Position numbers and translations under genes: made by a program. A stretch of 43,604 nt of DNA, from contig JAILBC010000011.1 of the NCBI GenBank assembly GCA_024681295.1, forward strand, positions 1 to 43,604, in the 5' to 3' direction. The notes below the pieces were generated by a model. The model had not been told where the DNA came from, searched no databases, and saw nothing but the letters and a program-made list of their open reading frames with translations. Below, in pieces: positions 350 to 41,167 of the stretch. Every line of letters starts with the position of its first letter. The stretch's first letter is position 1. Source of the stretch: Bacteroidales bacterium (GTDB taxonomy: Bacteria > Bacteroidota > Bacteroidia > Bacteroidales > F082).

Positions 350-703
350 ATGTACTACGTCAGAAAAACCCTCGAAATCTCTGCCTGCCATCAATTATAT
401 CTCGATTACGAGAGCAAATGTGAGAACCTCCACGGCCACAACTGGAAGATCAACGTGTATTGCCGTGCTGAGCAACTCGACAGCAACGGCATGGTGTGTG
501 ACTTTACGGAGATCAAGCGCCTTATCCATGGTAAGATTGATCATACCAACATCAACGAAGTGCTCGATTTCAACCCAACCGCCGAAAATCTGGCCAAGTG
601 GATCGTCGACACGGTGCCGAACTGCTACCGCGCCGACGTTTGGGAGTCGCGCGATAACAAGGCCTCCTATATCAAGGACGATGCGCCACAAAACTTCGAT
701 TGA
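350..703 (+). CDS. queD: QueD, 6-carboxy-5,6,7,8-tetrahydropterin synthase
   Basis: The enzyme converts 7,8-dihydroneopterin triphosphate to 6-carboxytetrahydropterin, the second step toward preQ0. The 117-residue length is normal for the QueD/PTPS family. Zinc ligands are visible as His14, His28 and His30 (the LHGHNW segment), with the catalytic Cys24 four residues before the HGH pair, which is the QueD spacing. The conserved C-terminal EN-LA-W segment (PTAENLAKW) is present. The stop codon TGA shares its last base with the ATG of queE (TGATG at 701-705), so the two are translationally coupled. Confidence 0.96.
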   Translation: MYYVRKTLEISACHQLYLDYESKCENLHGHNWKINVYCRAEQLDSNGMVCDFTEIKRLIHGKIDHTNINEVLDFNPTAENLAKWIVDTVPNCYRADVWESRDNKASYIKDDAPQNFD

Positions 704-5278: not shown

Positions 5279-6139
5279 ATGATAGGCTTTAATCTGAACA
5301 AAACGAAACGTTATTTCACGGAGCTGCTGGTGGAGCAGTTCTTGCAACGTGAGGCGGAACAGCTGATGCGAATCCTGCTGGAGGATCTCTTTGGCATCGA
5401 CCAAAAACGTCAGCTGATGGAGCCGAAACTGCGTATCGATGAACTTCAATATGCCCAGTTGGAAAATGCTGTGAAGCAGTTGCTAGAAGGCGTTCCTGTG
5501 CAGTATGTCACTGGCAAAGCTTACTTTGACGGGCTGTTATTCCAAGTAAATGAATCCTTGCTGATACCTCGTCCCGAGACGGAGGAGTTGGTGCAAAAGG
5601 TGTCGGCTGGGATTCCTTCGGATAGGCCTTTACGCATCTGGGACATCGGCACGGGTTCGGGCTGCATCGCCATCGCCCTAGCCAAGCGTTTCCCTTTGGC
5701 GAAAGTCATTGCGTTAGATGTCTCAGAAGCCGCTCTTGAAACGGCACGCCAGAACGCTTTATTGAATGAGGTACAGGTGGAGTTCGTCTGCGACGATGTG
5801 CTGAATCCCCAATCGGAAATCTGGAACCAGCCTGTCGATTTTGTGGTCAGCAATCCTCCTTATATCCGTGAGAGTGAGAAAGCCACCATGGAGCGTAATG
5901 TTCTCGAGCACGAGCCTCACACGGCGCTTTTCGTTCCCGATGAAGACCCATTGTTGTTCTACCGTCAAATTCTTACCCTCGCTAAACCCCAGTTAAGCTC
6001 CGACGGCTTCGTGTGGTTCGAGATCAACGAAGCGATGGGGGAGGAGGTGGCTCAACTCGGTCGAGAGATGGATCTCGAAGTTGTGGTTTATAATGATTTC
6101 CTTGGGAAACCACGCTTCGCGTCATTGCGAGGAGCCTAA
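5279..6139 (+). CDS. prmC: PrmC, release factor glutamine N5-methyltransferase
   Basis: PrmC methylates the glutamine of the GGQ motif in release factors RF1 and RF2 and so supports peptide release at stop codons. The 286-residue protein has an N-terminal helical domain, the SAM-binding motif DIGTGSGCIAIALA at about 122-135, an acidic LDVSEAAL loop and the catalytic NPPY at 192-195. I start at ATG 5279; the frame extends 15 bases upstream to a TTG that overlaps the -7 box and is unlikely. The last residues (ASLRGA) and the stop codon are coded by a dispersed palindromic repeat (6120-6157), so the C-terminal tail is repeat-derived. The release-factor gene prfC is also in this window. Confidence 0.95.
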   Translation: MIGFNLNKTKRYFTELLVEQFLQREAEQLMRILLEDLFGIDQKRQLMEPKLRIDELQYAQLENAVKQLLEGVPVQYVTGKAYFDGLLFQVNESLLIPRPETEELVQKVSAGIPSDRPLRIWDIGTGSGCIAIALAKRFPLAKVIALDVSEAALETARQNALLNEVQVEFVCDDVLNPQSEIWNQPVDFVVSNPPYIRESEKATMERNVLEHEPHTALFVPDEDPLLFYRQILTLAKPQLSSDGFVWFEINEAMGEEVAQLGREMDLEVVVYNDFLGKPRFASLRGA

Positions 6140-6157
6140 AGCGACGAAGCAATGACG
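6120..6157. repeat. Dispersed palindromic repeat (CGTCATTGCGAGGAGC type)
   Basis: Arms CGTCATTGC (6120-6128) and GCAATGACG (6149-6157) flank GAGGAGC and GCGACGAA. From memory this closely resembles a repeat seen in many unrelated bacterial genomes. It overlaps the 3' end of prmC, whose stop codon TAA (6137-6139) lies inside it. Confidence 0.75.
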
Positions 6158-6161
6158 TACT

Positions 6162-6201
6162 CGCCTTGGGCTAGGGGAAAGTTGCCCCTGCGGGCGTTTT
6201 T
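6162..6201 (+). terminator. Likely terminator of prmC
   Basis: The stem is CGCC (6162-6165) with GGCG (6193-6196) enclosing AGGGG (6173-6177) paired with CCCCT (6185-6189). It is followed by five T (6197-6201). The two helices are split by an internal loop, so strength is uncertain. Confidence 0.5.
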
Positions 6202-6235
6202 ACTCCTCACTCCTCACTCCCAACTCCTCACTTTC
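6201..6235. repeat. 7-bp tandem array at the 3' end of the protease gene
   Basis: There are five in-phase 7-bp units on the plus strand: TACTCCT at 6201, CACTCCT at 6208, CACTCCC at 6215, AACTCCT at 6222 and CACTTTC at 6229. The protease stop codon (minus strand, 6230-6228) falls inside the array. It belongs to the same family as the arrays at 287, 8795 and 12247. Confidence 0.75.
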
Positions 6236-8762
6236 TAACCTTTCTGGTCATCATCCCCTGGTCGGTCATTAATCTGACAACATAAATCCCTTCGGGGAAA
6301 CGCTCCAGGATGGAGGTGGAGGCGTCCTTGTCGGTGCTGGCATCGTAAACCACCTGGCCTAAGGTGTTGACGATGGTGATTCGTCTGATTCCAGTGATCT
6401 CGCTGTCAGCTTCGTCAACGGCCATCACGTTCTTCGGGAGGCATTCCGACCAAGCGATGTTCAATCCTTCGTCGTTGCTTATACCATATTTATATTGACC
6501 GATAGGCAATGCATCCCAGCCGTAGTCCACATAATGGGCCTCGGCAACCTTTTCGGCGATGAGCTCGGGAGTACCGCCATTGCAGTTGTCGCGGTAGATG
6601 CTGAAAGGGTTGCCTACGGTGATGTCATCGATATAGAAAGCGTTTTCGTATTCACCTTCGGCGAGCTGGTTGACGTATTTCCATTGAAGTTGGTGGCTGC
6701 CAGGGTCAAGTGTAAACGAATAACGGGTCCACGGCACCTCATCTTTGATGGTCTCGCCCTGCTGCACGTTGTCAATCAAGAAGCCACCTCCGTTAAGCGG
6801 GAAGCAGCTGATACGGGCTTGGTAACTGATGACGCAGGTGACGGGGACGTTGACACCCAAACTGAGGCTGCTAGTGGAGAACATCCCAGTGTTGGTCGAC
6901 TTGGCGCTATACACGCCCTCGTAGGGGTTGTTGGTGCTGACGACCCATGGGCTGGAGGCATCGTTAAACCACATGTTCTGGTAGAAGTCGCCCGACTCGA
7001 AACCGTCGACGATGCTGTTGGGCATGTTCCATGTTAGGTCCACGCGTTGGTTGTTGATGACCTCGGCTTCAATCTCCACCGTTTTATTGATAAACACATA
7101 GTTGGAGGGTAGGGTGGTGATGCCGTTGTCAAGGACAGCGGTAACATAATAAGTGTAGTTGCCGCCGTAGTTCAGGTGGTCGGTGTAGGTGGTGGAGGTA
7201 ACATTGTTTGCGATGCGCAGTCCGTCGCGGTAGACCTCGTAGGAGACGACCGAGGCGGGGGCGTCCCAACTCAATTCAACATTGTCGCCATCGAAATCGG
7301 CCGTGAGTCCCGAAGGACCGTGGAAGAACAAGGCGTTGATGGCAGCCAGGGCATCGATGCGGCCCGAGCCAGTGATGTTGTTCTTTTTGTAGTTGCCAAT
7401 CTTCACCGCGGTGAGTTCAATGATGGAGTCGATTTCGGCGGGACTCAGGGTGGGATTGGCTTCCAGCAGCAAGGCCATTACCCCAGCGGTGCAGGGGGTC
7501 GCCATCGAGGTACCGTCGTGGGCCTCATAGGCGGTGTTGCTCGGGAAACCGAGTGAGATGATGTTGGCACCCGGTGCGGAAATGTCGGGACGGATCAAAC
7601 CAGTCATGTCGGGGTCGCCAACTTCATAGGGATAGTCGTAGTACTCGCCGATGTTGGCACCTTGAGTCCAGGTCACAGGGCCTACTGACGAGAAACTGCT
7701 GTGCTTGTCGTTGGCATCGGTGGCACCGACGCACACCACGGCGGTGTGTCCTCCGTGGAGGGTTTGGTCGGGATGGAACCATGGCGGGGGACAGTTGCCC
7801 GGAGCCTCGATATTGAAAGGCTTCGGATAGGTGTATTGGGTGTCGCCGACATTGCCAGCGGCCACTGCGGCCACCACACCGGCATCGAGAACGGTCTCGT
7901 ACAGCTGCCTGAAGAGCGCATAGCCACCCGTCTCGGGGTCACCGAAAGAGCAACTCAAGATGTCGGCTCCATGGGCCAGGGCGAACTCAATGCCTTCAAT
8001 GATCTGTGCATCACCCCCATAGCCGGTCTCGTCCATGATCTTCACCGCCATGATTTTGGCTCCTGGGGCGATACCCGTCTGGGTTCCTGCGTTGCCCTGT
8101 CCGGCCACGATGCCGGCACAGTGGGTGCCATGCATGTAATCATCCATAGGGTCGTTGTCGTGGTTGACGACATCATAGCCGTGATGAGGGAACTCAGGAC
8201 CTCCATCCCACATGCTGCCCGCAATGTCAATGTGGTTGTAGTTCACACCCGTATCGAGTATGGCTACGATGACACCATTGCCAGTATATCCTGTCGTGCC
8301 GTTGTAGTTCCACACAGCAGGAGCGTTCACCTTGTCCACGTGCCAAGCATTGTCCTTCGATTCCACAGGATAAGACTTCTCGTTCTCGGGGAGCATCCTT
8401 CTGAGTTCGTCGTGATAAACAAAGGCTACATCGTGGCGAGCCTCCAATTGCATGATCACCTCATCGGAGGCCATGCATGCGAAGGCGTTGACGCTCCAGA
8501 AGGGATGGATGTCTTGGACCTCTTCGCCGAAACTTGCTACGTAGTTGAGCACGTTAGACTGCGAAGCCTCGCAGAATTCTTGAAGTTCATTGATAACAAA
8601 CTCACGCTTCTGTGCCTTGTCCATATACTGGGTCTTACGGCACATCTCAACATGATCATACTGCTGTTCCATCATCACAATCACACGATGGAACTCCTTG
8701 TCCTGCCCGAAGATCTCCCCGAAGCAGAACATCAAAACCAAAATGGCAAATGCTCTTTTCAT
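6228..8762 (-). CDS. Secreted subtilisin-like (S8) protease with type IX secretion domain
   Basis: The 844-residue protein begins with a signal peptide (MKRAFAILVLMFCFGEIFGQ). It then has a pro-region to about residue 140 and an S8 catalytic domain with Asp170 (AILDTG), His211 (HGTHCAG), the oxyanion Asn304 (AAGN) and Ser419 (GTSMATP). Next come a fibronectin-III-like segment around 485-560, a jelly-roll-like region (DGFESGDF ... FYIDDI) typical of carbohydrate-binding or adhesion modules, and a C-terminal type A sorting domain (ITIVNTLGQVVYDA ... GIYVVRLMTDQGMMTRKVRK). That end sends proteins through the type IX system to the cell surface. A perfect -7 box lies 19 bases upstream. A broad extracellular protein-degrading role is inferred. 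Confidence 0.93.
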   Translation of the reverse strand: MKRAFAILVLMFCFGEIFGQDKEFHRVIVMMEQQYDHVEMCRKTQYMDKAQKREFVINELQEFCEASQSNVLNYVASFGEEVQDIHPFWSVNAFACMASDEVIMQLEARHDVAFVYHDELRRMLPENEKSYPVESKDNAWHVDKVNAPAVWNYNGTTGYTGNGVIVAILDTGVNYNHIDIAGSMWDGGPEFPHHGYDVVNHDNDPMDDYMHGTHCAGIVAGQGNAGTQTGIAPGAKIMAVKIMDETGYGGDAQIIEGIEFALAHGADILSCSFGDPETGGYALFRQLYETVLDAGVVAAVAAGNVGDTQYTYPKPFNIEAPGNCPPPWFHPDQTLHGGHTAVVCVGATDANDKHSSFSSVGPVTWTQGANIGEYYDYPYEVGDPDMTGLIRPDISAPGANIISLGFPSNTAYEAHDGTSMATPCTAGVMALLLEANPTLSPAEIDSIIELTAVKIGNYKKNNITGSGRIDALAAINALFFHGPSGLTADFDGDNVELSWDAPASVVSYEVYRDGLRIANNVTSTTYTDHLNYGGNYTYYVTAVLDNGITTLPSNYVFINKTVEIEAEVINNQRVDLTWNMPNSIVDGFESGDFYQNMWFNDASSPWVVSTNNPYEGVYSAKSTNTGMFSTSSLSLGVNVPVTCVISYQARISCFPLNGGGFLIDNVQQGETIKDEVPWTRYSFTLDPGSHQLQWKYVNQLAEGEYENAFYIDDITVGNPFSIYRDNCNGGTPELIAEKVAEAHYVDYGWDALPIGQYKYGISNDEGLNIAWSECLPKNVMAVDEADSEITGIRRITIVNTLGQVVYDASTDKDASTSILERFPEGIYVVRLMTDQGMMTRKVRK

Positions 8763-8781
8763 ATGAAAAAAATATTTTTCG

Positions 8782-8789
8782 CAAAATTA
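8782..8789 (-). promoter_or_regulatory. -7 promoter box of the S8 protease gene
   Basis: TAATTTTG followed by C on the minus strand matches TAnnTTTG exactly and lies 19 bases before the ATG. It is divergent from the rnpB promoter, with the 7-bp array at 8795-8829 between them. Confidence 0.65.
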
Positions 8790-8794
8790 CAAAA

Positions 8795-8829
8795 AACCTC
8801 TCACCGCTCACCTCTCAATTCTCAATTTT
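8795..8829. repeat. 7-bp tandem array between the protease and rnpB promoters
   Basis: Five units are in phase: AACCTCT at 8795, CACCGCT at 8802, CACCTCT at 8809, CAATTCT at 8816 and CAATTTT at 8823. The array stops three bases before the rnpB -7 box, so it occupies the -33 region of that promoter and the upstream region of the divergent protease promoter. Confidence 0.7.
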
Positions 8830-8832
8830 CGT

Positions 8833-8840
8833 TACTTTTG
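8833..8840 (+). promoter_or_regulatory. -7 promoter box of rnpB
   Basis: TACTTTTG matches TAnnTTTG exactly. The RNase P RNA P1 helix starts at 8846, six bases downstream. Because the RNA's own 5' end is defined by structure, this spacing calibrates the predicted starts of the other promoters in the window. Confidence 0.75.
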
Positions 8841-8845
8841 CCGCG

Positions 8846-9214
8846 GCGATGAGAGGGACTGTCGCGAGTCGGGAAAGCCGGCGCGAGGAAAGTCGGGACA
8901 GCGCAGAGCACCGTACTTCTTAACAGGAAGGTGTCCGCAAGGGCAACAGCAAGTGCCACAGAAAAATACACCGCCCACAAGGGTAAGGGTGAAAACGCGA
9001 GGTAAGAGCTCACGCGGTGGGTGGCGACATTCCGCCGGGGTAAACCTTACGGGCTGCAAGCCCGAATATAGAGGCAAAGGCCGACGTGTCGGCTGAACGG
9101 GCTGCTCGTCCGTCGTCTCAGGGTAGGGCGCTTGAGCCTGCGGGTGACTGCAGGTCTAGAGAAATGACAGTCGCCCCGAAAGGGGAACAGAATCCCGCTT
9201 ACTACTCTCATCGC
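8846..9214 (+). ncRNA. rnpB: RNase P RNA, bacterial type A
   Basis: This is the catalytic RNA that removes 5' leaders from tRNA precursors. Its ends are set by a perfect 10-bp P1 helix, GCGATGAGAG (8846-8855) with CTCTCATCGC (9205-9214). The conserved GAGGAAAGTC is at 8885-8894, and the partner AACAGAATCCCGCTTA begins near 9186. In P4 the usual CCGGG/CCCGG pairing is replaced by CGGGA (8894-8898) and TCCCG (9193-9197), which still pair, so the change is compensatory. GGTAAGAGCTCACG, GGTAAACCTTACGGG and the AGAGAAATGACAG segment are also recognisable. Seven T follow P1, acting as terminator. The 369-nt length is normal. Confidence 0.96.
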
Positions 9215-9221
9215 TTTTTTT
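9205..9221 (+). terminator. rnpB 3' end and T-run
   Basis: The 3' strand of P1 (9205-9214) is followed by seven T at 9215-9221, so the RNase P RNA closing helix appears to double as the terminator stem. Confidence 0.6.
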
Positions 9222-9230
9222 ACAATAATA

Positions 9231-9246
9231 AACGTCTTTAGACGTT
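9231..9246. promoter_or_regulatory. Short perfect hairpin or dyad before the TPR gene
   Basis: AACGTC (9231-9236) and GACGTT (9241-9246) flank a 4-base loop, 17 bases before the TPR gene start. It could be an operator or a small mRNA hairpin. No consensus promoter is visible between rnpB and the TPR gene. Confidence 0.35.
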
Positions 9247-9263
9247 ATGTCAGAGTAATTTAG

Positions 9264-12200
9264 ATGACCATGAGAATCCGTACCTTCATACTAGCCGTGA
9301 TGCTGCTTGCGACCACCTTGTTGCATGCGCAGAAAACGGTACCCCAATATGAACCAGAAGCCTTGTACAATCAGGGTGTGACCCTCTTCCAAAACGGTGC
9401 CTACGCGGCCGCACTGGAGTCGTTCACCCAATATCTGACCGTTGTCGATGACCCAAAACTCCAGAAGTCGGTCGACGCCCAATACTACATCGCCGTCAGC
9501 GCCCTTTATGCAGGCCGCGCCGACGCGGAAGCCAAAATAAAAGCCTTCATCAGCGACAACCCGGGCAGCACTTGGGCCACCCATGCCAATTTCCTTTACG
9601 CCAACGTGCTGTTCGCCAAGAAGAAATATGCCGATGCCTTGGCCATCTACGAGAAGACCTCACCCTCGTCATTGTCCCGTGAAGAAGCCCAACAACTACA
9701 GTTTAACATGGGCTATGCTTACCTTCAACTCAATGAGTACGACAAAGCCCTGCCTTATCTCCAAGGCGCTGCATTCAACGAAGGGAAGTACCAGCAGGAT
9801 GCCCAATATTACTATGCTTACATCCAATACTTGAAAGGCAACAACCAAGAGGCGCTTCGCTTCTTCCAACCGCTTTGCAACCACGCCATCTATGGCAATG
9901 CCGCAAGGGCTTGTGTGATGCAGATCAACTACAGTGATGACGACTGGGAAGCAGTGCTTCGCGACGGTCCCGAGGTGGTGCGCAATGCCGACAAAAAGCG
10001 CCAAGGGGAACTGGCCCTGATGGTCGCTGATGCCTATTTCCAGCAGAAGGATTACAGCAATGCACTCGTGTATTACACCTTCTTCAACAAAGGCGGTTTT
10101 TCTCGCACCATGTCCCGTGAGGCCTGCTATCAGATGGGACTCTGTAAGATGAAGACAGGCCACCTCAAAGAAGCTATCTCCGACCTTCAGAAAGTGGCTT
10201 CCGACAAGGACACCATCGGACAATATGCCTCATACTACTTGGCTTCGTGCTATGCCGACACCGACCAGCCCAAATACGCCCGCAATGCGTTCTATACTGC
10301 ATACGCTGCAGGATTTGACAAAGCCATCAGCGAAGACGCCCTGTTCAACTACGCCCACCTGAGCCTCATCCCAGGTACCGACCCGTTCAATGAGGCCGTG
10401 GCCCAGCTCGATGCCTTTGTAGAAGAAAACCCGAACTCGGAACGTCGTGCCGAAGCCGAAGAACTCGCTGTGTACCTGCTGCTTAACGCCCAACGTAACG
10501 ACGAGGCACTCGCCCGTCTGGAAAAGATGCGCCAGAAAAGCCCTGAGTTGCGTTCGGTGTACGATGAACTGCTTTACGCCACGGGTATCGACCATTTCCA
10601 GGGACAACGCTACGACAAGGCCCAGGTCTGCTTCTCCAAGATCCTTAACGGCAAACAGTCGGGTAGCCGCAAGGCCGAAGCTACGTTCTGGCTCGCTGAG
10701 TCTGCCTTTGCCGCAGGCGACTTTGCCACGGCTGAACGCTACTACAAGCAAGTGAAGAACAACAACGCCTCTGGCCGCGAGCTGTCGGTCATGGCTGATT
10801 ACGGATTGGGCTACATCAGCTACCAAAAGCCCGACTACGACGCAGCCGTACGATATTTCAGGAACTTCGTACAGCAGTGCGACGACCGTAAGACTGACCT
10901 CAAGAGCGACGCTTACATTCGTTTGGGCGACTGCTTCTTCGTGGACCGCAGCTACAACGAGGCCATCAACTACTACGACATGGCCACCCGCATCAACAAG
11001 CGCAATGCCGATTACGCCCTCTTCCAACAGGGACTCTGCTACGGTGCCAAAGGCAACTCCAACCAGAAGATCAATCTGCTAGAGACGGTGGTGACCACTT
11101 ATCCTTCCACTAGCTATTACGATCGTGCCCTGTTCGAGATTGGCAATACCCATCTTGTTTACGGTGACAAACGGTCCGCTATCGCCGCCTTCAACCGCCT
11201 CATCAAGGAACGCCCGCGTTCTTCCTACACCCGTCAGGCTCTCATGAAGGTGGGTATGATCTACTACAACAACAACCAGTATGACCAGGCCCTTGCTAAC
11301 CTGAAGACCTTGATCAAGAACTATCCCAATACCGATGAGTCACGTGATGCGCTGGCTATTGTTCGCAACATTTATATGGAACAAAATAACCTAAATGAGT
11401 ATTTCAGTTACGTGGAATCGTCAGGTTCGGGCCAAGTACAAGTAACGCAGCAGGATTCGCTGGCCTTTGCCAATGCGGAGAACTTCTTCCTCGACGGACG
11501 TTATCAGGATGCCGAGAAGGCACTGAAATATTACTTCGATCATTTCCCGAAGGGAGGCTATACGCTGAAAGCCCGTCACTACGCTGCGGAATGCGCTGAA
11601 AAGGTCGGGACCGAAGAAGAGGTGAAGACCCATCTGAACTACATTGTGAGCCAGCCCGACAACGACTATACCGATGGTGCTTTGCTGAAGTTGGCCCGCA
11701 TCGAATACGACCATAAAAACTACGACAAGGCAAGCCAATACTACGGCCGTCTTGCCAATATCACCGAGGAACCGCTCCGTAAATTGGAAGCCCTCGAAGG
11801 CAGCATGAAGAGTTATTACTTCCTGAACAACTACGACAAGGCCATCGAGATGGGGGAGACCCTGAGCCGTTCGAAAGACCTGACCCAAGAACAGACCAAC
11901 CAAGTGAACCACATCCTCGGCAAGTCGTACTTCATGAAAGGCAACTACAGCACTGCCATCACCTGGCTCGACAAGAGTAGCGGGACCGACAAGTCGGTCT
12001 ACGGTGCTGAGAGCGCCTACTACGCTGCGAAGGCCTCCTTTGAACAGAACAACCTTGATGATACGGAGAATCGAGTATTCAGCATTGCTGAACAGTTCTC
12101 GAACCATGAGTACTGGGTGGCCAAGTCGTTCATCCTGCTGGCCGATGTGTATGTGGCCAAGGACAACCGCTTCCAAGCCCGCGAGACCCTCCGTAGCGTA

Positions 12201-12269
12201 GTGGATAATTGCTCCATCGCCGAACTCCGAGCTGAAGCCCAATCCAAACTCTCCACTCTTAACCTCTAA
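9264..12269 (+). CDS. Large periplasmic TPR protein
   Basis: The 1001-residue protein has a signal peptide (RTFILAVMLLATTLLHAQ) and is otherwise built of tetratricopeptide-type helix pairs from about residue 30 to the end. Examples are YNQGVTLFQNGAYAAALESF, LGDCFFVDRSYNEAINYYD and LALIKNYPNTDES-like units. TPR arrays of this kind bind partner proteins; no catalytic motif is seen. Starts at ATG 9264 or 9270 are both possible. The gene is followed after 25 bases by an outer-membrane barrel gene, so the pair probably acts as a periplasmic scaffold with its barrel. The last seven codons (KLSTLNL) and stop lie in a 7-bp tandem array, meaning the C-terminus is shaped by that repeat. Confidence 0.88.
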   Translation: MTMRIRTFILAVMLLATTLLHAQKTVPQYEPEALYNQGVTLFQNGAYAAALESFTQYLTVVDDPKLQKSVDAQYYIAVSALYAGRADAEAKIKAFISDNPGSTWATHANFLYANVLFAKKKYADALAIYEKTSPSSLSREEAQQLQFNMGYAYLQLNEYDKALPYLQGAAFNEGKYQQDAQYYYAYIQYLKGNNQEALRFFQPLCNHAIYGNAARACVMQINYSDDDWEAVLRDGPEVVRNADKKRQGELALMVADAYFQQKDYSNALVYYTFFNKGGFSRTMSREACYQMGLCKMKTGHLKEAISDLQKVASDKDTIGQYASYYLASCYADTDQPKYARNAFYTAYAAGFDKAISEDALFNYAHLSLIPGTDPFNEAVAQLDAFVEENPNSERRAEAEELAVYLLLNAQRNDEALARLEKMRQKSPELRSVYDELLYATGIDHFQGQRYDKAQVCFSKILNGKQSGSRKAEATFWLAESAFAAGDFATAERYYKQVKNNNASGRELSVMADYGLGYISYQKPDYDAAVRYFRNFVQQCDDRKTDLKSDAYIRLGDCFFVDRSYNEAINYYDMATRINKRNADYALFQQGLCYGAKGNSNQKINLLETVVTTYPSTSYYDRALFEIGNTHLVYGDKRSAIAAFNRLIKERPRSSYTRQALMKVGMIYYNNNQYDQALANLKTLIKNYPNTDESRDALAIVRNIYMEQNNLNEYFSYVESSGSGQVQVTQQDSLAFANAENFFLDGRYQDAEKALKYYFDHFPKGGYTLKARHYAAECAEKVGTEEEVKTHLNYIVSQPDNDYTDGALLKLARIEYDHKNYDKASQYYGRLANITEEPLRKLEALEGSMKSYYFLNNYDKAIEMGETLSRSKDLTQEQTNQVNHILGKSYFMKGNYSTAITWLDKSSGTDKSVYGAESAYYAAKASFEQNNLDDTENRVFSIAEQFSNHEYWVAKSFILLADVYVAKDNRFQARETLRSVVDNCSIAELRAEAQSKLSTLNL

Positions 12270-12294
12270 CCTCTAACCTCTCACTCCTCACCCC
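12247..12294. repeat. 7-bp tandem array across the TPR stop and up to the next ATG
   Basis: Units are in phase from 12247: AACTCTC, CACTCTT (12254), AACCTCT at 12261, 12268 and 12275, CACTCCT (12282) and a final CACCCC that abuts the ATG at 12295. The TPR stop codon TAA (12267-12269) is formed at the junction of two units. Three identical neighbouring units suggest recent slippage. Confidence 0.85.
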
Positions 12295-14040
12295 ATGAAA
12301 ACCAAATACATCTCCATAGTCCTCGCGCTCCTTTTGAGTATTAGCGCCTTTGCCCAACACAACGAGGAAGTCACCATCGAGGGCACGTACCGCCCGAAGG
12401 TGAACAAAGTGGATAAAATCGTGTTGCAGCCCGAGACACCCGAACAGAAGTTTGAGATGCCGAACACAGAAACCCATCTGATGGACATTGATCGCCGTTT
12501 CCCCCTCGATTTGGAGAAGTTGAGCGCACAGAGTTACAGTGGAAAGAACGCTCGCATGCCTGAGTCGACCAAAAACTTCCTGATGGCCGGCTTCGGAACG
12601 CGCATCTCCCCGGTGTTTCTCTATAAGCACAACTCCAACCTGACCAAAAATTTGGGTCTGGGCGTGGGCATCAAGCATTATTCCTCGTGGCTCGATATCA
12701 AAGATTACGCCCCGTCGAGCTTCATGAACAATGCTTTTGAGATCGGTCTAACCAGCAGCAAGTACAAAAATGTCCAACTGGAAGGCGATGTCTATTACAA
12801 GAACGACATGGTTCATTATTACGGCGTGAATTTGTTGAACCATCCTCTGACTGATGAGCAGATTGAGCTGTGTTGTCCGAAACAGATATACAACACTATA
12901 GGGGGACATTTCGGGATGGCTCCCGCGACGACCCGGACGGGCGAAGTGAACCACCATTTGAGTGTGGATTATCACTATACCTTTGACAAAACATACGCAA
13001 GAGAACATTCTGTGGAGACGGAATACGGCCTCGGTTACACTCAAAGCTGGTGGGGCAACAAGAGCCATCCGCAGAAAATTGGCATGGATTTAGGTTTCCA
13101 GTGGGAACATTTTGCCAGTAATCATGTAGAGTATTTTTTACCTGTGATCAATCAGTGGTCGCTCTATTTGATCAAGGTCAACCCGTTCTTTGAGATGGGT
13201 GATGAGTTCTATAAACTCCATTTGGGTGTACGTCTGGATGGCGTGAATCGCGTCCAGAACGGGGATCAGTTCCTAGCAGTGTGCCCTGACGTCAGTGGAA
13301 GTCTGTTTGTGCTGGATAAGAAGTTGGAATTCTATGCTGGCTTGAACGGTGGTAGGAAACTGACGACCTACAGCAATCTCATCACCGAGAATCCTTTTGT
13401 AGGAAGAAAATTATCTATGTTGGCGCAAAATGTCAAACTCGGTTTCGACGGCGGTGTTCGTACCAATATCGGTGAAGTGGTTGACCTGCATTTGGGCGTG
13501 CGTTATCGCCATACCGACAACGACCCGTTCTTTGTGCACGATAGGAGCGTCCCTGAATGGCAAGGGTTTCCCAATAAGTATGATGTGGTTTATGATGAAA
13601 CCCAGTTGGTGAGCGTGCTGGCTGATATGCGCGTGAAACTGCGTGACGGTTTCACGGTTGACATGGGCTTCGCCTACAACAATTACAAGATGACTAACGA
13701 GGATTGTCCTTGGCATCGTCCCAAGATGGAAGGGAAGTTAAAGCTGACCTACGATGTCAACGACAAGTTGGCGTTCAATACCACCTTCCTCTATCAGGGC
13801 GGACGCTATGCCAAGGATTGGAACAATGGTCCCTATTGGATGACCAAATACCCTCCTCAATATGATGTTGTAAAACTGAAGGATGTCTATGACCTCAGTC
13901 TTGGCGCCGACTATCGTTTTAACGACCAGCTTTCGGTGTTCGCCAAACTGGACAACGTGCTCAACCAAAAGTACCAGCTTTATTATGGTTACCCGGTGGA
14001 AGGAATCCAGTTTTTTGCCGGTCTTAAAATGAGGTTCTAA
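12295..14040 (+). CDS. Outer-membrane beta-barrel protein (TonB-dependent receptor-like)
   Basis: The 581-residue protein has a signal peptide (MKTKYISIVLALLLSISAFAQ), then about 60 polar residues beginning HNEEVTIEGTYRPKVNKVDK, and then alternating amphipathic strands rich in Tyr, Phe and Gly. The end, LDNVLNQKYQLYYGYPVEGIQ to ...GLKMRF with a terminal Phe, is typical of the last strands of TonB-dependent receptors. No clear plug domain or carboxypeptidase-like repeat is present, so it is shorter than a full SusC-type receptor. It forms an operon with the TPR gene. Function and substrate are unknown. Confidence 0.82.
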   Translation: MKTKYISIVLALLLSISAFAQHNEEVTIEGTYRPKVNKVDKIVLQPETPEQKFEMPNTETHLMDIDRRFPLDLEKLSAQSYSGKNARMPESTKNFLMAGFGTRISPVFLYKHNSNLTKNLGLGVGIKHYSSWLDIKDYAPSSFMNNAFEIGLTSSKYKNVQLEGDVYYKNDMVHYYGVNLLNHPLTDEQIELCCPKQIYNTIGGHFGMAPATTRTGEVNHHLSVDYHYTFDKTYAREHSVETEYGLGYTQSWWGNKSHPQKIGMDLGFQWEHFASNHVEYFLPVINQWSLYLIKVNPFFEMGDEFYKLHLGVRLDGVNRVQNGDQFLAVCPDVSGSLFVLDKKLEFYAGLNGGRKLTTYSNLITENPFVGRKLSMLAQNVKLGFDGGVRTNIGEVVDLHLGVRYRHTDNDPFFVHDRSVPEWQGFPNKYDVVYDETQLVSVLADMRVKLRDGFTVDMGFAYNNYKMTNEDCPWHRPKMEGKLKLTYDVNDKLAFNTTFLYQGGRYAKDWNNGPYWMTKYPPQYDVVKLKDVYDLSLGADYRFNDQLSVFAKLDNVLNQKYQLYYGYPVEGIQFFAGLKMRF

Positions 14041-39979: not shown

Positions 39980-41167
39980 ATGAAAACAAGGCGAATCGTC
40001 GACCGGCAGTGGCTTTTGTGGCTTTCATCCTTGATGATTGTCTGGATGGTTTTGTGGATGACGCTTGTGTCGGACCATGCGATGAAGCTCAAGAAAGAGG
40101 CCGAAGCGCGTGAGGCCTACCTGGCCGATAGCGTGGTGACGCTGCTCTTCGCTGGCGACGTCATGGGCCACGAGCCCCAATGGAGAGCTGCCTACGATCC
40201 GACCACGGGTACCTACGACTATCACGATTGTTTTCAATTTGTTTCACAATTGTTTCACAATGCGGACTTGGCTTGCGCCAATTTAGAAGTGACGCTCGCT
40301 GGCCCACCGTATACTTCGTATCCCACTTTTTCTTCACCCGATGAGCTGCTCTTTGCTTTGGATGACGCAGGAGTCGACGTGCTGTTTACCGCCAACAACC
40401 ACGTGCTCGACCATGGAAAATCAGGCTTGGAACGCACCATCTACATGCTCGACAGCGTGGGGATGCTCCATGCCGGTAGTTATGTCGACTCGCTGAGCCG
40501 CGATACCACCTATCCTTTGGTGGTCGATGTGAGGGGCCTGAAAGTAGGCTTCCTCAATATGACCTACGGCACCAACGGCTTGAAGGCCCGTGAGCCCAAT
40601 CTGGTGAACAAATTGGATACTGCAGAGATGATTCGTGATTTCAACCGACTCGAAGAATTGGGCGCCGACTTGAAAGTGATGTTCGTCCACTGGGGCGATG
40701 AATATGAGTTGCACGCCAATCGCTACCAGCGTTATTTTGCCCAATTCATGGTTCGTCATGGAGCCGACTTGATCATCGGTGGTCACCCCCATGTGTCGCA
40801 GGATGCCGACACTTTGTATGCTCCTGACGGTCACCCCGTGGTGGTTTATTATTCCATGGGCAACTTCGTCTCCAACCAGCGCCGACCCAACACCAATGGA
40901 GGCATCATGATTCAGGTGGCAGTAAACCGCTTCACAGGCCGTGTCATCAGCACCAACTACATCCCGTATTACGTGCATCGCGGCTATATTCATGGCAAAT
41001 ACCAGTTTTATGTCGTTCCGACCCTTCCTTTCATTAATAATAGGTATGACTTCCGGCTTCCTTACCACGATAGCGTCGCACTGGTCAAGGTTCATCAAGC
41101 CATGACGGAACGACTTAAGGATTTTATTCCTATTTTTGCAGACGATTTTGAAATCGAGGACAAATGA
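39980..41167 (+). CDS. CapA-family (poly-gamma-glutamate capsule-type) metallophosphatase-fold protein
   Basis: The 395-residue protein has an N-terminal membrane anchor ([20 protein letters not shown]) and a CapA/PgsA domain. Visible motifs are [13 protein letters not shown] (Gly59-Asp60), [40 protein letters not shown] and [11 protein letters not shown]. The family is related to calcineurin-like phosphatases and was named from capsule poly-gamma-glutamate export. Many members lie outside capsule operons, as here, so the role is uncertain. The start follows directly on the tRNA terminator, and the stop overlaps the prfC ATG (41164-41167). Confidence 0.9.

Follow-up and report, generated by a model that had tools for sequence, protein, structure and literature searches.

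The window analysed here is a stretch of 43,604 nucleotides (contig JAILBC010000011.1, contig 112 in our numbering) from the 2.72 Mb draft genome of a Bacteroidales bacterium of the family F082 (GenBank assembly GCA_024681295.1), and it carries four short tandem arrays with a 7-bp unit, at 286-349, 6201-6235, 8795-8829 and 12247-12294. All four belong to a larger population of such arrays, spread over the genome and the genus, which probably behaves as a neutral or selfish repeat. In related species the seven-base rhythm is often kept at a site although its spelling differs, and this suggests a spreading, self-renewing repeat population rather than ordinary control signals.

A population of seven-base arrays at gene ends and inside genes

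The initial annotation had listed the four arrays as one family dispersed at gene boundaries. All four are present in the sequence, and a tandem-repeat scan with Tandem Repeats Finder (TRF) gives period 7. Three MACYYYY units in a row (M, A or C; Y, C or T), with at most one mismatch, match the window 12 times, overlaps included, and all of these matches lie within the four array sites; in 100 dinucleotide-preserving shuffles of the window the mean is 0.04 and the maximum 1. Two of the arrays are less uniform than first described. The site initially read as a single array at 287-349 is an array site (286-349), but it consists of a purine-rich AAAACGG/AAAACTG part followed by a pyrimidine-rich AACTTTT part, and the array at 8795-8829 is real but impure (units ACCTCTC, ACCGCTC, ACCTCTC, AATTCTC and AATTTTC).

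A search of the whole draft genome with the heptamer pattern gave 161 + 180 overlapping exact three-unit matches. The pattern read backward matched 55 + 84 times and is no clean null because CACTTTC arrays match it as well; other periods and shuffles were used instead. A scan that presupposes no unit bears out the period-7 excess beyond the window: 63 runs in 702,991 bases. No other period between 4 and 12 exceeds nine runs, and one set of Markov shuffles has none at period 7. This own-genome sample comprises the window, one 20-kb stretch chosen for its listed matches and, from each of contigs 1 to 59, at most the initial 20 kb; six of its short contigs (13,120 bases) hold no G or C at all and were treated as masked. 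The common units in this genome are AACTTTT, CACTTTC, CACTCTT, CACTCCT, AACCTCT and CCGTTTT, and the arrays listed are 19 to 66 bp long, with varied 7-bp units and no fixed element of about 150 bp.

The same rhythm recurs in related genomes. The relative G072 (462,680 bases scanned, 6 of the 26 stretches being orthologous to array-bearing regions) has 36 period-7 runs against at most six at other periods, and the other relatives (472,999 bases, all in stretches chosen as such orthologs) have 40 against at most nine; neither these samples nor that of our own genome are entirely unbiased. A lesser excess at period 8 was also seen in these scans, with 6 runs in G072 and 9 in the other relatives at a score of at least 14, versus 36 and 40 for period 7. 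Further afield, a set of 80 named gyrB neighbourhoods (1.44 Mb; by title, almost every one from Bacteroidota) gave 30 runs at period 7, 17 at its harmonic 14 and 12 at 21, with at most seven at the other periods from 4 to 13. The three-unit MACYYYY pattern occurs in 114 of 149 family genomes, our own included; many have few matches, and the units listed vary by genome. The idea that the arrays are ordinary pyrimidine-rich spacer sequence arisen by chance has practically nothing left to it: the units are indeed pyrimidine-rich, but the 12 matches in the window and the 63 runs in the genome sample far exceed what the shuffles and the other periods yield, and a chance origin is thereby ruled out.

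Where the arrays lie was assessed against genes called with a custom, simple codon-usage caller (85% coding). Among 88 arrays in 703 kb, 37 are intergenic, 34 run across the 3' end of a gene, 13 are internal and 4 lie at a 5' end; positions drawn at random fall into these classes at 13.6%, 2.9%, 80.5% and 3.0%, respectively. Within 5 bp of a stop codon we find 57 of the 75 non-internal arrays (control 9.7%), and within 5 bp of a start 25 of the 75 (control 11.2%). Closeness to stops is in part so by construction, because the stop codon may come from the array itself once it runs into the end of a gene. The gene-boundary placement proposed for the arrays therefore holds as a strong enrichment, but not as a confinement, given the 13 arrays inside genes. 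There is also a strand preference: of the 59 arrays no more than 10 bp away from a stop codon, 44 have the G-rich strand on the coding strand, 14 have the C-rich strand there and one is unclear. G072 presents a similar distribution: of its 48 arrays, 22 are at 3' ends, 21 lie between genes and 5 inside them. Among the 43 non-internal ones, 35 are no more than 5 bp from a stop and 9 no more than 5 bp from a start; near stops the coding strand is G-rich in 29 of 38 cases, C-rich in 7 and unclear in 2.

The 13 internal arrays are all in frame and translate without a stop. They sit in nine called genes, among them, by Pfam, those for IleRS, ValRS, LptF/G, FtsK, an S41 protease and ApbE. Since 7 is no multiple of 3, a perfect heptamer array encodes one and the same cycle of seven amino acids in all three frames; a stop-free unit can therefore live inside a gene, and a long stop-bearing array ends every frame that enters it. 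In the orthologs of IleRS, LptF/G and the S41 protease the array stretch varies in length, with differently spelled in-frame arrays in several species and none in others; one such pair of spellings is KLKVESGKLKDLSTLHSPLSTF in our genome versus KLKTENGERKTKLSVFSSPFSVY in G099. Within the literature searches made here, no entry on in-frame heptamer arrays inside essential Bacteroidota enzymes was met.

IleRS offers two such sites, which are probably surface loops. In two alignments with solved IleRS sequences, the proteins of the relatives fall short by 13 residues at loop 1 and by 3 at loop 2. For loop 2 we read 30 species, of which 14 have a plain loop of 36 nt, two a 27-nt loop and three a 57-nt loop with weak periodicity, while 11 carry a period-7 run with a score of at least 8. 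Loop 1 was readable in 26 of the 30 and contains a run of at least 10 in 11. Two very similar species differ at loop 2: G109 (L231) has the plain 36-nt form and G072 (L232) a 66-nt array loop that resembles the one of G155. In G166 (L226), G127 (L234), G160 (L237) and G114 (L236) loop 1 holds other palindromic-looking inserts, by our reading of the letters, and the loop thus seems to accept inserts of several kinds. Our assembly also has a second IleRS-like stretch (G000:C134:41560-42951), 95% identical to the first over residues 1-469, which is a duplicate, a contaminant or an effect of assembly.

Turnover at orthologous sites, polarity and origin

To follow the arrays between species we took 21 sites, ascertained in our own genome, and read 99 orthologous gaps of at least 28 bp in relatives. 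A period-7 run with a score of at least 10 is present in 48 of the 99 gaps (shuffled mean 0.065), a period-8 run in 5 and a run at any other period from 4 to 12 in none. The spelling is far less stable than the period: among 54 pairs of orthologous arrays, the dominant unit is identical in two and mismatched at two or more positions in 42. Upstream of the queD-like gene that follows the 286-349 array, seven of eight relatives have heptamer-like sequence of differing kinds, TAACTGA-like in G111, G072 and G109, AAAACTG in G155, AAACGG plus AACTTTT in G130, CATTCCTAATTCC in G099 and CAATTAT in G114, with none in G142 (by eye). Likewise by eye, five of six relatives have differently spelled heptamer-like sequence upstream of the RNase P RNA, G142 again having none.

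Arrays are also gained and resized. Where the S8 peptidase gene ends, none of six relatives read shows, by eye, a heptamer array like that at 6201-6235, and the 12247-12294 array is absent from the orthologous boundary in all 14 relatives read, again by eye; in the closest relatives about 20 bp of ordinary sequence stand in place of its roughly 46 bp. We saw no target duplication in six aligned sites, this gain included, and six are few. At another site (L093:462) the same array is 14 bp longer in G142, so that two species differ there by exactly two units. Within a genome, arrays at different sites resemble each other: their mean similarity is 0.147, compared with 0.092 +/- 0.006 when labels are shuffled, and none of 500 shuffles reaches 0.147. 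This likeness lends support to the shared origin that had been proposed for the arrays.

The account that we favour runs as follows. The arrays may grow and shrink by slippage in 7-bp steps, which fits both the period and the 14-bp difference. Since the arrays of one genome share spellings, copying between them is called for; template switching or gene conversion would be the least demanding route and could spread new spellings and seed new sites. Selection would mainly remove harmful insertions and keep reading frames, so that arrays survive where they are tolerated; survival would then be set by harm, with stop-bearing units ending frames and stop-free units able to live within them.

Several observations weigh against this account. 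The copying between arrays was inferred and not seen. When the three commonest units of each array are considered, an exact match is found in 15 of the 54 orthologous pairs and a single-base difference in another 24, and much of the change may therefore be gradual drift at a site and not replacement. The likeness of arrays at the same site in different genomes (0.168) is slightly above that of arrays in the same genome (0.147). Finally, slippage and copying alone do not explain the strict order in which opposite arrays are paired, nor the bias toward the G-strand after stop codons; these point to a function at transcript ends or else to an origin that is polar, for instance by end addition.

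The order is as follows. Wherever two arrays on opposite strands, both clear, lie within 60 bp of each other, the G-rich strand comes first and the C-rich strand second: 13 of 13 pairs, 8 in our genome, 4 in G072 and 1 elsewhere. Six further pairs comprise one on the same strand and five with an unclear strand. Loop 1 of IleRS has two arms in seven species, all G-to-C by our reading, although as one site these are not independent. Many pairs fold well, with hairpin z scores of -9.2 for IleRS loop 1 in our genome and -11.6 for LptF/G in G099; the 286-349 pair folds poorly (z 1.4), as do some others. Over 21 pairs the unit order of one arm mirrors that of the other more closely than when units are shuffled (325.5 versus 293.7, standard deviation 9.2; the highest of 300 shuffles reached 316). 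Taken singly, few pairs are conspicuous, and in some, that of S41 in our genome for one, the two arms have different unit families. At a given site, own arms compared with those of other species gave on average -18.9 versus -13.1, -23.4 versus -20.5 and -6.5 versus -5.2, and at S41 -17.3 for both, so own arms do better at three of four sites with little gained overall. Fold-back as the only origin of pairs has the overall mirroring for it and the pairs with different unit families against it.

Could the arrays instead be functional elements of transcript 3' ends? A G-strand array after a stop codon, or a G-then-C hairpin between genes, would then end transcription or protect RNA ends, the letters being free and only the rhythm or the hairpin mattering. 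The 57 of 75 non-internal arrays at stop codons, the G-strand on the coding strand in 44 of 59 cases in our genome and 29 of 38 in G072, the hairpins with z down to -11.6 and the location of some pairs between convergent genes all speak for such a role. We nevertheless consider it unlikely: G-to-C pairs also occur inside the IleRS, LptF/G and S41 genes, where a terminator would be harmful, the 286-349 array and its relatives show next to no folding, orthologous sites gain and lose arrays, and the closeness to stops is to some degree built in, as argued above. A polar origin would be provided by DNA breaks, if some activity extended 3' ends by G-rich heptamers in steps of 7 nt, in the way that vertebrate telomerase does at internal breaks. 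Joining two extended ends would yield a G-strand followed by a C-strand, and a single extended end would yield a single array. We know of no enzyme of this kind. The model predicts the G-to-C order found in 13 of 13 opposite pairs, it accommodates pairs with different unit families in their two arms, which fold-back would not give at birth, and it suits the one clean gain, in which a target of about 20 bp is swapped for an array of about 46 bp and which, with no target duplication in the six alignments, resembles interstitial telomeric insertions (PMC7215372). Mirroring of the arms above chance over the 21 pairs favours fold-back, and reverse transcriptases, a candidate enzyme family, do not follow the arrays: counts of PF00078 and of arrays are uncorrelated over 55 genomes (rho -0.16, p 0.24), and a PF00078 match is absent from 7 of the 14 genomes with at least 50 pattern matches, four of these seven being at least 96% complete. 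We therefore hold break scars to be quite improbable.

The arrays are dispersed and often palindromic, and Y1 transposases are found in 54 of 75 genus genomes, all of which would suit movement by a transposase of the Y1 type or of the type that moves miniature inverted-repeat transposable elements (MITEs). Against this, the alignments reveal neither common ends nor target duplication, Y1 counts (PF01797) are uncorrelated with array counts over 55 genomes (rho -0.03, p 0.81), and a Y1 match is lacking in 7 of the 14 array-rich genomes; we regard such a mover as highly unlikely. A phage search with a single repeat returned no match, a negative without weight given the low-complexity filter. Because the array counts in both correlations cover the MACYYYY unit family alone, they are a weak test; with this limit, we set aside reverse transcriptase and Y1 transposase as drivers for want of correlation with array counts, and a fixed mobile element for want of common ends or target duplications in the few aligned sites. 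The boldest version of a polar origin has, in our estimate, a slim chance of being right: a process working in 7-nt steps in at least two bacterial phyla would add G-rich heptamers to 3' DNA ends, telomerase-like at internal breaks, G-to-C pairs and stop-codon arrays would be its scars, and loops of essential enzymes would be rewritten species by species. A neutral or selfish repeat population, kept in motion by slippage and copying, remains our preferred explanation. Its genus offers many species with differently spelled arrays at the same sites, so that gain, loss, homogenisation and polarity become datable and testable.

Neighbours of the four arrays in the window

The 286-349 site fills the whole gap between two genes: it starts on the final base of a TGA stop (284-286) and reaches the base preceding an ATG at 350. 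Its first member, at 286-317 on the plus strand, is a G-strand (purine-rich) array of AAAACGG/AAAACTG units (TRF period 7, 4.6 copies) that begins at the last base of the stop; the second, at 315-349 on the same strand, is a C-strand (pyrimidine-rich) array of AACTTTT/CACTCTT/AACTCCT units, with TRF period 7 and pattern matches over 315-349, and the two form a G-to-C pair. The ATG opens a queD-like gene of the 6-pyruvoyl tetrahydropterin synthase family (350-703, plus strand; PF01242, E 9.1e-29).

The next two arrays flank an S8 peptidase gene on the minus strand (6228-8762; PF00082, E 1.7e-53, with a weak match, below the curated cut-off, to the type IX secretion sorting domain PF18962). The array at 6201-6235, identified by TRF, by its letters and by the pattern, consists of CACTCCT/AACTCCT units as a C-strand array on the plus strand, reads as a G-strand array on the minus strand and contains the stop codon of the peptidase gene (6228-6230, minus strand). 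Directly before it, at 6182-6200, we noticed by eye a GC-rich inverted repeat followed by T5, terminator-like for a plus-strand gene. Somewhat further upstream, at 6121-6157, lies a palindromic-looking repeat (CGTCATTGCGAGGAGC...GACGAAGCAATGACG), and similar letters are present in gaps of G072 (L093:462 and L093:17831) and G109 (L093:462); this is a second dispersed repeat family.

The impure array at 8795-8829 (plus strand; TRF, letters and pattern matches) lies between the 5' side of the peptidase gene and the RNase P RNA of bacterial class A (8846-9218, plus strand; Rfam RF00010, 241.1 bits), directly upstream of the latter. The sequence TACTTTTG at 8833-8840, before the RNase P RNA, fits TAnnTTTG, which we take to be the Bacteroidetes -7 box, and the array would then cover the place expected for the -33 box. 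The gene that follows, at 9264-12269 on the plus strand, encodes a tetratricopeptide repeat (TPR) protein (TPR families, open reading frame list), and its stop codon lies inside the fourth array. That array (12247-12294, plus strand; TRF, letters and pattern) is a C-strand array with an AACCTCT core, spans the stop and ends just before an ATG at 12295. At 40222-40261 the window also has an array of period 11, TCACAATTGTT, with 3.6 copies.

Comparison with known repeats

The short tandemly repeated repetitive (STRR) sequences of heterocystous cyanobacteria are short tandem heptamers between genes; they belong to another phylum, and our arrays are likened to them by description and not by sequence. 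More generally, the likeness to published heptamer repeats proposed by the initial annotation stands, and in placement the family resembles the GGGNATC repeats of Xanthomonas.

GGGNATC / GGGGA(C/T)T heptamer repeats are described from Xanthomonas and Nostoc (PMC4692102). In Xanthomonas they occupy 186 and 183 sites per genome, mostly between genes and near the end of the upstream open reading frame (ORF), with 11% and 7% overlapping ORFs (PMC4692102). Pairs in convergent orientation number 70 and 75, which we interpret as G-strand first, and the repeats vary between species in length and sequence (PMC4692102). Few paired heptamer repeats were found in Nostoc; earlier surveys had noted an excess of heptamers in bacteria, for which polymerase slippage was guessed at and the cause left unsettled, as told in the same paper (PMC4692102). 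Our arrays share with the GGGNATC repeats a 7-bp unit with variable positions, the copy number, a place near where the upstream ORF ends and convergent opposite pairs (13 of 13 here). They differ in composition, as the GGGNATC units contain tracts of three or four G and fold into G-quadruplexes in vitro (PMC4692102), whereas our common units CACTTTC, AACTTTT, AACCTCT and CCGTTTT have no run of three G or C. As to strand, the discussion of the Xanthomonas repeats says that they prefer the downstream position on the coding strand, a likeness to our arrays, but in the counts for tandem ORFs the same and the opposite strand are about equal (30 and 35%, 35 and 35%; PMC4692102), unlike the G-strand bias after stops reported here.

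Contrary to the initial annotation, which knew of no named equivalent in Bacteroidales, TAACTGA arrays have already been published from five Bacteroidetes (PMC4679880). These are tandem heptamers, mostly intergenic, with one dominant unit; most lie just upstream of start codons, some overlap the stop codons of upstream genes and ORF ends, and insertions in proteins are found mainly at the ends (PMC4679880). Indels of 7 nt are described between Cyanothece strains (PMC4679880). TAACTGA-like units do occur at the queD site in the relatives G111, G072 and G109, and among the sites we read they occur in relatives at that site only, the units of the window being MACYYYY and AAAACGG/AAAACTG. Moreover, many unit families coexist in our genome, and stop codons are the main neighbours.

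Other repeats share single traits with the arrays. Rickettsia palindromic elements are families of about 150 bp with a conserved peptide, in frame in unrelated protein genes (PMC10969869); the in-frame arrays (13 of 88), in part palindromic, are comparable, but the unit is 7 bp and there is no fixed element. BrickBuilt of Porphyromonas gingivalis is a minisatellite inside a MITE (PMC4596501), strictly intergenic according to a review (PMC10969869). Like ours it is a repeat array in a Bacteroidales genome; in our arrays we saw no terminal inverted repeats or target duplications in the six aligned sites, which are few. The interstitial telomeric sequences of vertebrates are short tandem arrays at internal sites, as ours are, and are often gained with small deletions (PMC7215372); they have a known template and enzyme, whereas PF00078 counts do not track the arrays here.

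We met neither arrays in essential enzymes nor a switch of unit family at a given site in the portion of the Xanthomonas and Nostoc description that we consulted (PMC4692102). Such repeats can lengthen parts of essential enzymes in frame, and this serves as a warning that C-termini, loop alignments and gene models in these genomes are partly repeat-encoded. Heptamer repeats as such are an already known kind, to which the arrays belong by their 7-bp unit, their many dispersed copies and their enrichment outside coding sequence; what is different here is the number of unit families per genome, the change of the dominant unit at fixed sites between species and the presence of arrays within essential enzymes.

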